Shown here piece by piece: positions 23,366 to 29,376 of a stretch of DNA of 64,000 nucleotides. Source of the stretch: Kalmusia sp. IMI 367209. Taxonomy: Eukaryota > Ascomycota > Dothideomycetes > Pleosporales > Didymosphaeriaceae. How positions within the stretch are numbered: position 1 is the first letter of the stretch; every line of letters begins with the position of its first letter. The position numbers and the translations under genes were made by a program. The notes below the pieces were generated by a model. It made no database searches. It was not told the origin of the DNA and saw only the letters and a list, made by a program, of their open reading frames with translations. The stretch lies in contig JAPEUQ010000007.1 of NCBI GenBank assembly GCA_027946365.1, forward strand, positions 2,108,001-2,172,000. The letters run 5' to 3'.

Positions 23366-23373
23366 GTATAATT

Positions 23374-23577
23374 TAGACTGGCAAATGGGTTGGGGTTAAC
23401 CATAGGTAGGTTGGGGTTGGGTTAGCTATTACTAAGCATTGGGTATAGGTTGGGGTTGGGTCGCACGAACCTTAGGTGTAGGTTAAGGTTGGGTCAATGG
23501 ACCCTAGGTGCAGGTTAGGGTTGGGTCATTCTAGTTGGACCTTGGGTATAGGTTGGTTAAGGGTTCCTATCAGGTTG
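23374..23577. repeat. hAT left terminal inverted repeat and subterminal G-rich array
   Basis: The terminal repeat is 23374-23390. Inside it are about five spaced copies of GGTTGGGGTTGGGT-like units (two as GGTTAAGG/GGTTAGGG variants), several preceded by GGTATAGG or GGTGYAGG. Arrays like this usually serve as transposase binding sites in hAT ends. Confidence 0.85.
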
Positions 23578-23718
23578 GATTTATATAACGGTAATTTATA
23601 TTGATATTTTATATAATTCTATTACTAGAAAGTATATTTAGGGAAACGTCTATAACTTTTGTAGAACACTCTACTAGCGGAAGTCAGAGAGATATGAACT
23701 ATTTATTTATAACAGCTA

Positions 23719-26376
23719 TTAAACACGGTAACGTAAAGGAGGTTGAACCCTTCGACGTTTACGTGGTTGGAGTATTTGCTCCCTATTTACACTAGGAATA
23801 TGTACAATATCTTCCTGCTCTATAATATCTTCCTCATCTATAACCTCTTCCTCCTCTGTAATCTCTTCCTCCTCTATACTATCTATATGATCTGAATAGG
23901 TTGGAAGCTCAAAAAGATCATTTACTCCATCATAAGGTGCTAGGCTATCCTCTGTAATAATATATTGCTCCTTCTCTTGAAAAATTGCATGCTTAAAAAA
24001 CATGATCTGCTGAATTCTCTGGGCTGAAAGACGGTGTCTCCGATCTCCAATTACATCTCTTGCAATATTAAAAACACGCTCAATACTTACTGCAGTAATC
24101 TGAATAGGTAGAATATCTTTTGCAATTTGGGCAAGATGAGGATAAGTATCCTCATTTGCTTTCCACCACTGTAAATATCAAAAGATTCACCTATAATAAT
24201 ATGAGGTGTACTTAGATAAGCTTCTCCTTCCTGACGTGCTGCCCTTGCTCTTCTTCCATATGTTGTAAGCTAGTACCCTGGTTTTGGCCAGATACTGAAA
24301 TACTACTTGACTGTGATTGGTTTAAGGATGGGGCTTCCGGAACCACTCTGTACCTGATGATCGTCTAGGATAGGTAGTTGAGACTGGAGTAAAATCTCTG
24401 GTTTCTTTATTATCATAGCGATCAAGGTATTGAAGAAATTGCTGGCGGTAGTTATGCTTGTCCTGAGCTTCCCAAGTATCATCCTATAGATAGTATTAGT
24501 GATTACTGTAATAAATAGCTGTGATAATAGTACCTCATATGCTGTAAGCTTTTGTGTTGGATCGAGAATAGTTGCGCAGTTGAATAAGAAGCCCCGCTCT
24601 GCATCTGTTTTCGAATAGTACTTGCTTAGTTTAGCTCGTCCTTTTCTAGCTGCAGCTCTTACTACTGTTGGCCACTCTGCGTTATCTCTATTCTCTGAAT
24701 CTTCACTAAGCTCTTCCGTCATCTTATCTAAAAAATCAAAGAGTCGATTATACATAAGCCAGATATATTGGATCTGTTTTTTTTTTGGTTCTGGCTCAAA
24801 GAGTCGGTTGCATCCTTAAACCTCTTTAGCATAGCTGTGATAAGCTCAAGGTGGTGCCACTCAGTATGAGATAGTCGAAGTCGTTTAAGGTCACGGAAAT
24901 CTACCTCCGCGTTATCATTATTACTGGTAGCCCTAGTAATATGAGGAGTCGTTTTTAAGTTGATTTCTTGTTTAAGCCATTCATCGATATATGACTGGAG
25001 CTTAACTGCGCGGTCACACATGTCGAACGTCGAATTCCAACGAGTTCTCACGTCTCGTATAACAGAGAGACGTTCTTTTGGTGGTAGGGATTGCTGAGTA
25101 GCAATAAAACGTTCAAAACGTTGTGGGGATCGATCAATCGCTTTGCATATTGCCCGGAGCTAGCCATAACTTAGTCTGTAATAAATACCTGTGATAAAAG
25201 CTAGCTTACCTTCCGAAGAGAATTCGGTATTGAAATTTCTGATTGAATCTCATTTATATGGCGCCGTTGTAGATTCTCTTCAACCTCTAGCTCACTAGGA
25301 GCTGCTAGCTCAAGATGCTGAATGATATCCTGGACAACCAGATTGATGATATGAGCGAGGCATGGAACCGTATTCTCAGTAGAATCCCAATTAATACCTT
25401 CTTCTTGTAGTTGAGTTTGGATAGTACGAGCCAGTGTTCCATTATTACTAGCATTATCACATGTGATAGCTAGAAGTTGCTGCTTAGTATTCGTATCAGA
25501 TAGAACCTGTAGTACTTCTAATGCCATAGAAGTACCTGTATGGCTTCCACGAATTGGGATAAAATCAAGTAGCTTCTCACAAAATTCCCAGTTGTTATTA
25601 ATATAGTACTCCCTTTACTGCAAGAAAGCTAAGATGGTTTCTTGCAGACCAACATCTAAGGCAATTGAGATCTTCGTAGTTTTACAAAGATCACAAAGTA
25701 GAGAAGCTTTAGCTGTTTTAACTTGATCCTGGAATATCGACTGTAATTTATAACGGCTCGTTATCACAGTATTGGGCCTAAGGTATTGAAGGAAGCGTTG
25801 AAAGGATGGCCTCTCTACTGTTCGGAAAGACCAGTTGTTGTCTATTACCACCCGTACAAGTTCATTCTCATAGGTCATAGGAGAATACAATGGGACTGGT
25901 GTTATAGTATTTCGATAATGTAGAGGCCGGGCCGTAGGTGTAGGTAACTGAATATGTATAGGAGTTAGAGTCTCCTTACAAGATTGAGTATTAAGGTGAT
26001 TCGTAAGATGCTTAGTTCCAATTGTTTTGACTGTTGGATGTTGAAGTGCAAATCCGCAATTAAGACAGAATACATATGGGCGACCATCTGTATACTGTGC
26101 GGCCTCTCCAAATTGGGTCCAGATTTGGCCAAAACGAGAGGTTGAATTCCACCGTGGGTTATGAGTTAAAGGATCCGTAGCCCATGTAGTTTCACTCCAC
26201 CACTTATTCCATATAGAACGAATTTCGCTTTGTTCCTCATTGTGTTCGTTATTCGTAGATGGATATTTAATTAATATCAGGGTGCTCTGAGTTCCCCCTC
26301 TAACAATTTGGGGGGCGCTTAATTGGAATTGATTAAGGATAGGTGGAAACTGTGGGGATTGAAGAGCAGATGCCAT
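23719..26376 (-). pseudogene. hAT transposase, frameshifted
   Basis: Start MASALQSPQ at 26376 (an upstream in-frame Met at 26484 is less likely). Domain order: N-terminal BED-type zinc finger (YVFCLNCGFALQHP...HLTNHL), a region ending KISIALD followed by a shifted WSARNHLSFLAVKG, RGSHTGTSMALEVL, TCDNASNNGTL, RTRWNSTFDM, and the C-terminal hATC dimerisation domain (WWKANEDTYPHLAQIAKDIL...SIERVF). An acidic stretch and a basic RKRRR nuclear-signal-like end at 23719 follow. Two introns are clear: 25160-25209 and 24484-24533, both 50 nt and phase 0. Frameshifts: two compensating ones near 25.66 and 25.62 kb, at least one between 24.32 and 24.25 kb, and one near 24.18 kb just before the WW of hATC. 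It therefore cannot encode a full transposase as read, unless some are sequencing errors. Confidence 0.85.
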
Positions 26377-26484
26377 AAGTAGAATGGATAAGGATAGTGG
26401 TGTGATAAAAAGATGTGATAAAACTAAAGGAGTTGTGAGATATGTTGGTGGCCTGAGAGGTTTAATGCGTATGTTTCCATTCAT

Positions 26485-26724
26485 GACTATAAGATAGGGT
26501 GCAGGGCTTATGATATTCTAGTACGTCTGTTTACATTCCTAAGTACATTCCATAATAAGTGAGTATTAAAATCATAAATGATATGTTTACATTCCAGGTA
26601 AACAATCTGTGATTATTGGCTGTATTAACTATTACTAGCTAATTGCAGTTAAGCAGAGTGCCAAAACTTAACTAAGATCTACCTCCTAATATTTGAGTAT
26701 TCATTCTGTAGTAGACTCTGACAC
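26485..26724. other. Spacer between transposase and acidic-tail gene
   Basis: About 240 bp between the 5' end of the transposase and the 3' end of the next minus-strand gene. It should hold the transposase promoter. No other feature was recognised. Confidence 0.4.
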
Positions 26725-27937
26725 TCAATCGTCTTCATCAGAAAACCCCTCAAAATCTGTAAAGCCCTCAAACTCCTCCTCACTATCATCATTATCCTCA
26801 TCCTCATCTTTATCAGTAGAGGTCTCATATTCATCATCCCCCTCATTATACGCAGCGTCAATCTCAGAGTCATAGTCAACTTCTTCTTCACACTCATCAC
26901 TCTCATCGCCAAGAACATATGGCAAATTGCTTTCAAGCGTAATATCTTCTCCCCCAGATATACACTCAAGGACAGACGTAGGCTCACAACGTCTAGCGTA
27001 ATTAGTATATAAGCGTGATAAAAGAATGTAATAAACTTACTGCCAGTCCTTATCTGTTACCATAGCTAACTCTTCTTTGGTAAGGCCATCTATAAATTGT
27101 TGCCAATCAGCTTTAGCCTCTTTACTTTCGAATGTATTGCTTTTGAGCTTTGCTAAGCCGTCTTCATAGGTGTCTCGCATAATTTTCTCAAGGGCACCGC
27201 CAGATCCATAGAGTCGCAACTCTCCACGGCCTTGGAGTTGTCTATCAGGAGAGCTTTTACTAGCCTGGGCTAGCTTCTCTAGGGATTTGTGGTGCTGCCT
27301 AAGGGAAACTTCGTGATTAAGCTTCTCCCATTTCCGGTGGACTCGTTGTAGCTGAGCTACTAGCCATTCACCTACACCTTGTAAGTATAAACATGTGATA
27401 AATTACTGTTATAACTTACTACTCTTCTGATTCTGAAAGCGCTGATCTGAAAGCTTCTCCTGCTCCATCTTAAGGTAGTTTTTCTTTGCATCCTCAGACA
27501 GAGAAGTGTACGTGTCTTGTTTTTCAAGTCTCTTCTTAAGCATACTTTTGGCAGAACGATCAGCAGCATTAGCGCTCTCAATAGCCTTGGTCTCTATCAC
27601 GTAGAGCAGCTCGATCTCTTTGCTGAACAGCACGAGCACTATTACTAAGTACGCCCTTAAACGGTACTGATAAGTTCGTAGGACGACCTTTTCGAGAACC
27701 GCTCTGTCCACGTAGTGAGAGGACGTGATCGATTTCTTGCTCTTCAGAAGTAAAACCCTATATAAATTAGTTTATACTGTGATAATAAACTAGAATAAAT
27801 ACCTTCGTAAGCTTGTCCCACTCATCATAGTCATATCCAGCTGGTATCTCGCGCTTAATACTGGGCAGTAAACCCTCAGGACGATCTAGATAATCGGTCT
27901 CTTCAATAGGCTCTTGCTTAATAGGCGGAGACTTCAT
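26725..27937 (-). pseudogene. Unknown protein with Asp/Glu-rich tail, hAT cargo, one frameshift
   Basis: Four exons: 27937-27803, 27757-27420, 27377-27041, 26992-26725, with introns of 45, 42 and 48 nt in consistent phases; about 359 residues. I do not recognise the family. Visible features: start MKSPPIKQEPIEE, with IKQE and IKRE both fitting the SUMO-acceptor pattern; a basic, Arg/Ser-rich stretch (SGSRKGRP); a charged, probably helical middle (ESANAADRSAKSMLKKRLEKQ and later HRKWEKLNHEVSLRQHHKSLEK); and a C-terminal tail of about 60 residues dominated by Asp/Glu, ending FEGFSDEDD. Exon 2 has one reading-frame break near 27,595 in an AGAGA run. An acidic tail beside a histone-like gene suggests a histone-binding or chaperone-like role, but this is inference only. 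The start codon lies 519 bp from that of the H3-like gene, in the opposite direction. Confidence 0.7.
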
Positions 27938-28456
27938 TGCGCAGAAACTGTAATAAAGGTATGTAGTAACTTATAGAGCGATCCTGCAAAAGTGCGATAG
28001 TAGAAGGTAGGTAGAAGAAAGTTGACAGGGGACTGACTATAGATGCAGTTAAGCGAGATTTGGTGGCCCGTGCGCGACGCTAGCGCGGTACAACAACAAT
28101 AAATAATAATAATCGTATATTGCGCATACGCATACAGCGACCAAAAAAAGTCGCATTACTACGGCAAGAGTATCAATCGAAAGCGCATCTTAAGCTCTTT
28201 CCCTATGTGAATTATCACGGAAATTTATCACGGAGTTGTTGTGATATACGCTGATAGAGTCTGTAAATTAGCTTGCCCAACTTTTGTATTTCCCTCTCAC
28301 CTTCACTTTCTCCCTCTCACCTTCACTTTCTCGCTTCTATATTCACCGCTATATAACTATTGCCTCAGCGACTAAACTTCTACTTTCTACTTCTACTTTC
28401 TACTTCTACTTTCAACTGCTCTAACTTTTATCGCTGCTCTACAAACTCTACCTATA
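27938..28456. promoter_or_regulatory. Divergent promoter region of the two cargo genes
   Basis: About 520 bp between the two divergent start codons. It contains a TTTATTACAG on the minus strand 14 bp before the acidic-gene start, which looks like a 5'-UTR intron acceptor. Near the H3-like gene are pyrimidine-rich repeats (CCCTCTCACCTTCACTTTCT twice at about 28,290-28,330, and repeated CTTCTACTTT at about 28,377-28,410), typical of fungal core promoters. Confidence 0.55.
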
Positions 28457-28998
28457 ATGGCTAGATCTAAACAAGTTGCATTACTAAAAGCCTCGCCATA
28501 AGCTAGCAACTGGCGGAAAAGCTCCCAAGAAAGATCTAGCTAGTAAGGCTGCGCGCGAGAAGATCGCTGGCAATGCGAAGAAAAAGCGGCGCTTTAAGCC
28601 AGGCAGTAAGTTATCACAGCTTCTAATCACATTCTTAAGCTGATAGGATATAGCGGTGGCGCTTAGAGAGATTAGGCAATATCAAAAACTGCAGAGCTAC
28701 TTATTCGCAAGCTTCCATTCACGTCTTGTTCGCGAGCTAGTCCATGCCTGCAAGCCGGACTTGCGCATCAGGCTTCTGCACTAAGTGCTCTTCAAGAAGC
28801 TACTGAGGCGTTCATGGTTGGATATCTTGAAGGTATGTACCTCTAATCAGTATATTAACTATTAAGTAAATACTTATTTTCCTAGACTGCCAAATGAATG
28901 CGATCCATGCAAAGAGGGTTACAATTCAGGTCAAAGATTCTTATTTGGCAAAGCGTTACTACCAAAGATACCATATCCTGCACGTTCTATCAAATTAA
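28457..28998 (+). pseudogene. Divergent histone H3-like gene, frameshifted, hAT cargo
   Basis: Three exons: 28457-28605, 28654-28832, 28886-28998; introns 48 and 53 nt. Start MARSKQVA resembles the H3 tail start ARTKQTA. After a stop at 28499-28501 and a frame change, TGGKAPKKDLASKAARE matches H3 residues 11-26. Splicing intron 1 gives KPGTVALREIRQYQK, the H3 alphaN signature. Next come AELLIRKLPF, SRLVREL and PDLRI, then ALSALQEATEAFMVGYLED and, after intron 2, NAIHAKRVTIQVKD, covering alpha1 to alpha3 of the histone fold. The C-terminus (YLAKRYYQRYHILHVLSN) differs from canonical H3. At least three further frame changes occur, one at the A5 run 28684-28688. Loop 1 length looks canonical, so a centromeric H3 is less likely. 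Divergence well beyond the indels implies long independent evolution. Confidence 0.85.
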
Positions 28999-29218
28999 GG
29001 AGAAAACCTGTTAGGGGTAGTAGTTATAGGTCATGAAGCTCTAGTAGCAATGAATCTAGTTATACTGTTATAATTAACTGTAATAAATGCGTGATAGTTG
29101 ATATTACCTAGCTACCCTAGTATCCACCTTAACAATAATCATAATTAAAAACGACTAAGACGTAAATAGAAATATATTAATTGATTATGATTACTCAGAC
29201 CCTAGACATAACCATATA
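28999..29218. other. Right inner flank of the hAT element
   Basis: Contains, at about 29,078-29,096 (minus-strand sense), another TATCAC...TTTATTACAG block with a GGTAATAT donor-like start. It looks like an orphan intron, perhaps of a lost exon. No open frame supports a gene. Confidence 0.4.
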
Positions 29219-29368
29219 CCCTAACCCTAACCCAACCCTGATTTTAGTAACCTAACTCCTAACCTATACCATTACTAGCGCTAAATTAATGGGTTTAGGT
29301 ATAGGTTAGGTTAGGTCTTATGTAATCTGACCCAACCCCAACCCAACCTATACCCATTTGCCAGTCTA
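29219..29368. repeat. hAT right subterminal C-rich array and terminal inverted repeat
   Basis: The inverted counterpart of the left end: CCCTAACCCTAACCCAACCC, two GGTTAGGTTAGG-type units, ACCCCAACCCAACC, then the 17-bp terminal repeat at 29352-29368. The telomere-like CCCTAA units belong to this array, not to a telomere. Confidence 0.85.
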
Positions 29369-29376
29369 GTATAATT

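Follow-up and report, generated by a model that had tools for sequence, protein, structure and literature searches.

Introduction

Histone H3-like genes carried by hAT transposons have been described from Pyrenophora tritici-repentis (Ptr) and from Mycosphaerellaceae, and here we compare these systems with a hAT element that carries an H3-like gene, H3L, in Kalmusia sp. IMI 367209. The window analysed is a stretch of 64,000 nucleotides (GenBank assembly GCA_027946365.1, contig JAPEUQ010000007.1, positions 2,108,001 to 2,172,000 of the forward strand), to which the feature coordinates below refer. According to the available text of Manning et al. 2013 (PMC3538342), the Ptr element measures ∼5.6 kb, contains a hAT transposase, a central open reading frame (ORF) of unknown function and H3L, and also occurs as a 2.3-kb short form. 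Expressed sequence tags are reported there for Ptr H3L, which is described as neither H3 nor centromeric H3 (CenH3). The Ptr copies are nearly identical and 23 of 26 H3L genes are apparently functional, as cited in the accessible part of Dhillon et al. 2019 (PMC6710886), a report that describes an H3-carrying hAT in Pseudocercospora fijiensis and five relatives (six Mycosphaerellaceae). In the portions available, both papers put the H3-hAT cases down to transduplication and date the Ptr event as recent, and PMC6710886 calls the latter very recent and a transcript capture.

The window element resembles the Ptr element, as far as the latter is described in the available text, in its three-gene architecture, in size (5,995 bp vs ∼5.6 kb) and in the homology of all three proteins, and the two H3L proteins share a tail insertion and variable alpha-helices. 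The elements differ in that identity is ∼50% for the central protein and 59% for H3L, and in that the Ptr copies are near-identical, whereas 18 of 30 copies here are heavily altered by repeat-induced point mutation (RIP). The three-gene element type is already published for Ptr and, judged by sequence, the window element is a further member of it. The P. fijiensis element, from the corresponding part of its description, is likewise an H3-like sequence in a hAT with 8-bp duplications, amplified and RIP-mutated, but it is 9.5 kb long, has a 20-bp terminal inverted repeat (TIR) and carries one or two H3 sequences per element, intronless and judged to be captured transcripts. The same partial text gives no dimerisation domain as found in it and no similarity to the Ptr hAT. 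By this description it is set apart from the window element, which has a perfect TIR of 17 bp and an H3L with two introns, unlike the intronless retrocopies of the Mycosphaerellaceae type. Among the matches listed in full-text literature, a body of text that leaves subscription journals mostly outside, there was no further account of a hAT carrying H3, and a direct query for transposon-encoded histones was likewise unproductive; the main text of PMC5915480, on P. teres, does not mention a histone.

In the present study we argue that the window holds a Ptr-type three-gene hAT whose H3L is probably an old, constrained resident of the transposon family and not a recently captured transcript. Diagnostic changes at H3 positions 103-134, together with intron sites found in relatives, argue against recent transcript capture.

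Results

Structure of the H3-like gene

H3L runs on the plus strand from an ATG at 28457 to a TAA at 28998, in three exons separated by two GT-AG introns. The spliced gene with H3 motifs that a preliminary description of the stretch had reported is present, and the frame of the window copy itself is broken (frameshifted, with 6 internal stops along the spliced frame). For this reason a sister copy, L013, which is intact and encodes 147 aa, supplied the protein sequence. Exon 1 (28457..28605) covers the tail to T45, exon 2 (28654..28832) alphaN to alpha2, and exon 3 (28886..28998) loop 2, alpha3 and an extended C-terminus, all on the plus strand. Both introns, also on the plus strand, are in phase 1, the first (28606..28653) at codon T45 of the intact copy and the second (28833..28885) at codon D106.

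The unspliced metagenome proteins P0139, P0142 and P0147 have an inserted stretch exactly at the D106 intron site, and P0147 has a second one at the T45 site, the same sites being read through in these proteins; intron sites of relatives are deduced here from protein letters, not from DNA. Introns of the host H3 gene lie elsewhere, at codons R8 and Q120. The sites shared with relatives and the different sites in host H3 argue against recent capture of a host H3 transcript.

Diagnostic residues of H3L

Differences from H3 were scanned over H3 positions 41-135, a position being called diagnostic where residues present in ≤2% of 138 H3-like proteins outside the H3L set (85-165 aa) make up at least 80% of those in H3L. 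Nine positions qualified (103, 107, 110, 124, 130, 131, 132, 133 and 134), and none in 41-102. They include C110N and L130Y at the H3-H3' contact, where canonical H3 has C/A110 and I/L130; L126 is retained in H3L. For the C-terminal residues we counted 208 non-H3L proteins, which remained of 223 after 15 that did not fit the pattern had been set aside: N110 and S124 occur in none of them and Y130 in two (P0083 and P0085, both with odd C-termini). G102 was dropped as a signature residue, since it is found in 183 of the 208. Seven residues, R49, R69, R72, R83, R116, V117 and T118, are invariant in all H3L rows that cover them, and the five arginines we take to be DNA contacts. The last helix spans 18 residues in a structure model of P0138, the H3L of Ptr, at modest confidence; alpha3 of canonical H3 has ∼11 residues.

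Positions 109, 110, 126 and 130 are reported as altered to control H3-H3 pairing in yeast, in engineered histones, in the available part of PMC5626479, and the C110E L126A I130A form of H3 gives constitutive H3-H4 dimers according to that of PMC5404915. H3L is like the engineered H3X/H3Y pairs and this triple mutant in being changed at contact positions 110 and 130, but theirs are designed substitutions, whereas H3L has N110 and Y130 and keeps L126.

Relatives and phylogeny

Relatives of H3L were taken from the best 120 matches per search, so absence from a species says little; they comprise P0138 (Ptr, 19 member sequences), P0137 (P. teres), P0045 (Paraphoma, Pleosporales) and six metagenome proteins. 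Pairwise identity among their open H3-fold frames is 54-75%. For the central protein, 16 homologues were obtained at E ≤ 0.001, and all species-named ones are from Pleosporales: three species of Pyrenophora, Bipolaris sorokiniana, Alternaria panax, Boeremia exigua and Parastagonospora nodorum. Its match to P0124 of Ptr has 50% identity over 89% (E 3.4e-92), and the window transposase matches P0136 of Ptr at 65-70% identity over two stretches. Parts of both the central ORF and the hAT are joined in P0136, in keeping with the chimeric protein described in the available text of PMC3538342, and from species, copy number and published description we infer that P0138 and P0136 are the proteins of the published Ptr element.

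A branch separates ten H3L rows from canonical H3 and the host CenH3 (support 100/98, 32 rows), and again from H3 and three CenH3s (100/99, 28 rows). Read from the best tree, H3L forms one clade apart from H3 and CenH3, a placement that is new here; on these comparisons the clade is deep and is held together by tree and diagnostic residues only. CenH3s (CENP-A, Cse4) are, like H3L, fast-evolving H3 paralogues, and some share EATEAF and S68 with it, but H3L occupies a separate branch in the best tree and has no W84, and N110 and Y130-Y131 are absent from the three CenH3s compared. Relative to host H3, nonsynonymous divergence (dN) of H3L is ∼0.36 and synonymous sites are saturated (proportion of differences, pS, 0.886; dS is infinite under Jukes-Cantor, hence no ratio). 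A fresh capture of the host's own H3 is rejected on the tree placement and the different intron sites.

Copies in the genome and RIP

In the genome of 42.8 Mb (30 contigs) the H3L region has 35 matches, of which one is just 83 bases long, and H3L regions number at least 34. Five of the matches, without a locus, were not read, which leaves 30 copies, the window's own included. Four probes combined gave 45 copy groups, and all four parts are present in 28 of these; H3L is found in 28 of the 32 groups that carry the transposase probe, all such counts being lower bounds. H3L travels with the element, 29 of the 30 fetched copies aligning to the element's last base and L022 ending 45 bp short. Exact 8-bp duplications flank 8 of 13 copies checked (the window copy, L017 and 6 of 11 others), the duplication of L025 matches in 7 of 8 positions, those of L011, L012 and L018 mismatch, and at L013 a left TIR end cannot be recognised. 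A transposon lineage of long standing that possesses an H3 variant of its own, as postulated in the preliminary description, fits these data: many hAT copies carry H3L, and in the trees H3L groups with H3-like proteins of other fungi and metagenomes and not with the H3 of the host.

RIP was assessed in the 30 copies over ∼1.1 kb, against a reference made as the majority of seven low-RIP copies. Eighteen copies are heavily mutated, with 78-182 changes each, and CpA to TpA accounts for 1,443 of 2,565 of the summed changes; in a milder copy, L016, 10 of 12 changes are at CpA. Transversions number 0-5 in 17 of the 18 heavily mutated copies (14 in L022), and so few of them indicate that the copies radiated from nearly one sequence. 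Many low-RIP copies have indels of 1-2 bases, some in homopolymers, which may be assembly errors or decay. Escape from RIP, which had been proposed as a benefit of H3L, is not supported, given the 18 heavily mutated copies, and in this genome we reject it as an effect common to the whole family.

Some copies are clustered. On contig C29, positions 1,544,261-1,582,733 form a cluster of <40 kb with six copy groups or fragments, of which four carry the H3L probe and three all four probes, and two full copies stand there head to tail, <1 kb apart. The copies at C8:63,598-70,430 and C30:1,993,505-2,000,350 are ∼1.2 kb longer than the rest between the outer probes, possibly through nested insertions.

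Anatomy of the element in the window

A search for TIR and target-site duplication (TSD) delimits a complete hAT element of 5,995 bp at 23374..29368, to which no strand is assigned. The 17-bp TIR, TAGACTGGCAAATGGGT, is perfect in the window end-pair search and lies at 23374..23390 (plus strand) and 29352..29368 (minus strand), and an exact 8-bp duplication, GTATAATT, flanks the element on the left (23366..23373) and right (29369..29376), in agreement with the intact ends and perfect duplication first reported. Among end pairs with an 8-bp duplication in the range searched, the runner-up matches in only 10 of 17 TIR positions. Just inside both ends of the element are telomere-like repeats: the left array (23385..23566, plus strand) consists of TAGGTTGGGGTTGGGT and its kin, with a 16-mer and a 28-mer each present four times, and the right array (29214..29354, minus strand) is partly its reverse complement. 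They are putative transposase binding sites.

The transposase gene (23719..26376, minus strand), located from the ORF list and domain matches, is interrupted by introns and/or frameshifts in the window copy. It matches PF05699 (Dimer_Tnp_hAT) above the cut-off, with E 1.8e-15 on 23722-24177, and PF14372 under the curated cut-off of that family, with E 6.3e-5 on 24306-24815. The 8-bp TSD, short TIR and transposase with a C-terminal dimerisation domain place the element in the hAT superfamily. Also on the minus strand, the central gene (26725..27937) has four exons, 27937-27803, 27757-27420, 27377-27041 and 26992-26725, and encodes an acidic, helical, GRP-containing protein with an acidic C-terminus that ends EFEGFSD-like in several members. 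Its window copy is frameshifted; in copy L010 the frame is open as far as it was read. Between the central gene and H3L, which are divergently transcribed, lies an intergenic region of 519 bp (27938..28456) that may act as a shared promoter. At the host H3 locus (L001) an H4-like frame stands on the opposite strand, and the divergent layout of H3L and the central gene recalls such a histone gene pair. The window is ∼48-55% GC over 1-10 kb and AT-rich over 10000-64000, mostly 22-35% GC, and the less-RIPped element stands out there at ∼40% GC.

Discussion

The published view of such genes, put forward for the elements of Ptr and of Mycosphaerellaceae, would make H3L a transduplicated host gene, functionless and drifting. 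That intact H3L is found in just 1 of 30 copies and that H3L evolves far faster than host H3 agree with it, as does the description of transduplication, with a recent Ptr event, in the available passages of PMC6710886 and PMC3538342. A drifting passenger would nevertheless hardly be expected to persist as open H3-fold frames at such divergence in Ptr, P. teres, Paraphoma and metagenomes, to keep the seven histone-fold residues invariant, or to show a dN as low as ∼0.36 against host H3 while synonymous sites are saturated. It accounts equally poorly for the conserved new residues at 103-134 and for intron sites common to some relatives, and we regard it as rather unlikely.

An alternative role is that an H3L tail without the normal heterochromatin marking sites (K9, K27 context) aids the element. 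The tail of the window family keeps K4, K9, K14, K18 and K23, with R8 replaced by T, S10 changed, K27 replaced by E and S28 by K, and the intact copy reads AARE-K where H3 has AARKS. The altered ARKS region of the preliminary description thus stands for the window family but not as a family trait: six of eight alignable H3L tails keep K27, and the window family belongs to the two that do not. All eight tails retain K14 and K18, one of eight S10 and four of six K9, the tail alignment as a whole being uncertain. Loss of methylation sites is, in these aligned tails, not a shared feature of the H3L family, RIP still strikes 18 of 30 copies, and mark evasion appears highly doubtful to us. Descent from CenH3, with a centromere-like or kinetochore-decoy role kept, is the least credible explanation, for although H3L has EATEAF, S68 in 9 of 10 proteins as in human CENP-A, and loop-1 insertions in P0055, P0059 and P0142, and although a joint clade is not rejected by the approximately unbiased (AU) test (p 0.18 with three CenH3s, 0.38 with the host CenH3), the best tree separates the two on the 100/99 branch, W84 is missing, and the window and Pyrenophora H3L have no loop-1 insertion.

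Our preferred reading, an old and constrained H3L in a Ptr-type hAT, also has a number of observations against it. With 58-68% identity to its relatives and 63% to host H3, the window H3L is overall no closer to the former. Since the N110 motif served in part to choose the H3L set, N110 in 10/10 is partly so by construction, and for this reason the tree was rebuilt from 134 rows restricted to H3 positions 41-102. In this tree the ten H3L stay together with one intruder, P0165, but strict monophyly is absent from the best tree and from all of 200 bootstraps (0%), with an AU p of 0.3 (not rejected); the AU result on a joint clade with CenH3 adds to this. P0165 (132 aa, from environmental contigs) is a divergent H3 with S68 but C110. 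The single intact spliced H3L frame is in L013, and the central frame is open over the part read in 1 of 27 copies (L030, L034 and L038 were left out of this reading), a different copy, L010. H3L and transposase are seen together in one element in this genome, and otherwise only in the published Ptr case, and the central protein matched no solved fold or chaperone family in sequence and fold comparisons.

How an old, retained H3L might serve the element can be proposed tentatively, and as a whole we hold the following mechanism to be somewhat less than an even bet. Intact copies would express H3L, which would pair with host H4 through the conserved histone fold. The resulting H3L-H4 nucleosomes or tetrasomes would have an H3-H3' bundle (N110, Y130, lengthened last helix) unlike that of the host. 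Such particles would not readily mix with host H3 and might yield less stable or less repressible chromatin, suiting transposase access. The acidic central protein is a candidate loader or DNA-tethered partner of H3L; it may be the loader, for which its acidic C-terminus is suggestive only. A stronger version, in which N110, Y130 and Y131 with the lengthened helix would make H3L-H4 tetramers exclude host H3, the central protein would be a dedicated loader and element DNA would be marked in a form unreadable for host silencing, strikes us as decidedly unlikely.

If H3L is indeed old and kept, Pleosporales of different genera would share a transposon that brings along a core histone of its own, and the published view that Ptr H3L was captured from a transcript very recently would need revision. 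An H3L of this kind would also make testable the question whether a mobile element can re-engineer the H3-H3' contact to build its own chromatin. The diagnostic positions of H3L partly coincide with those changed in laboratories to force the choice of H3 pairing.
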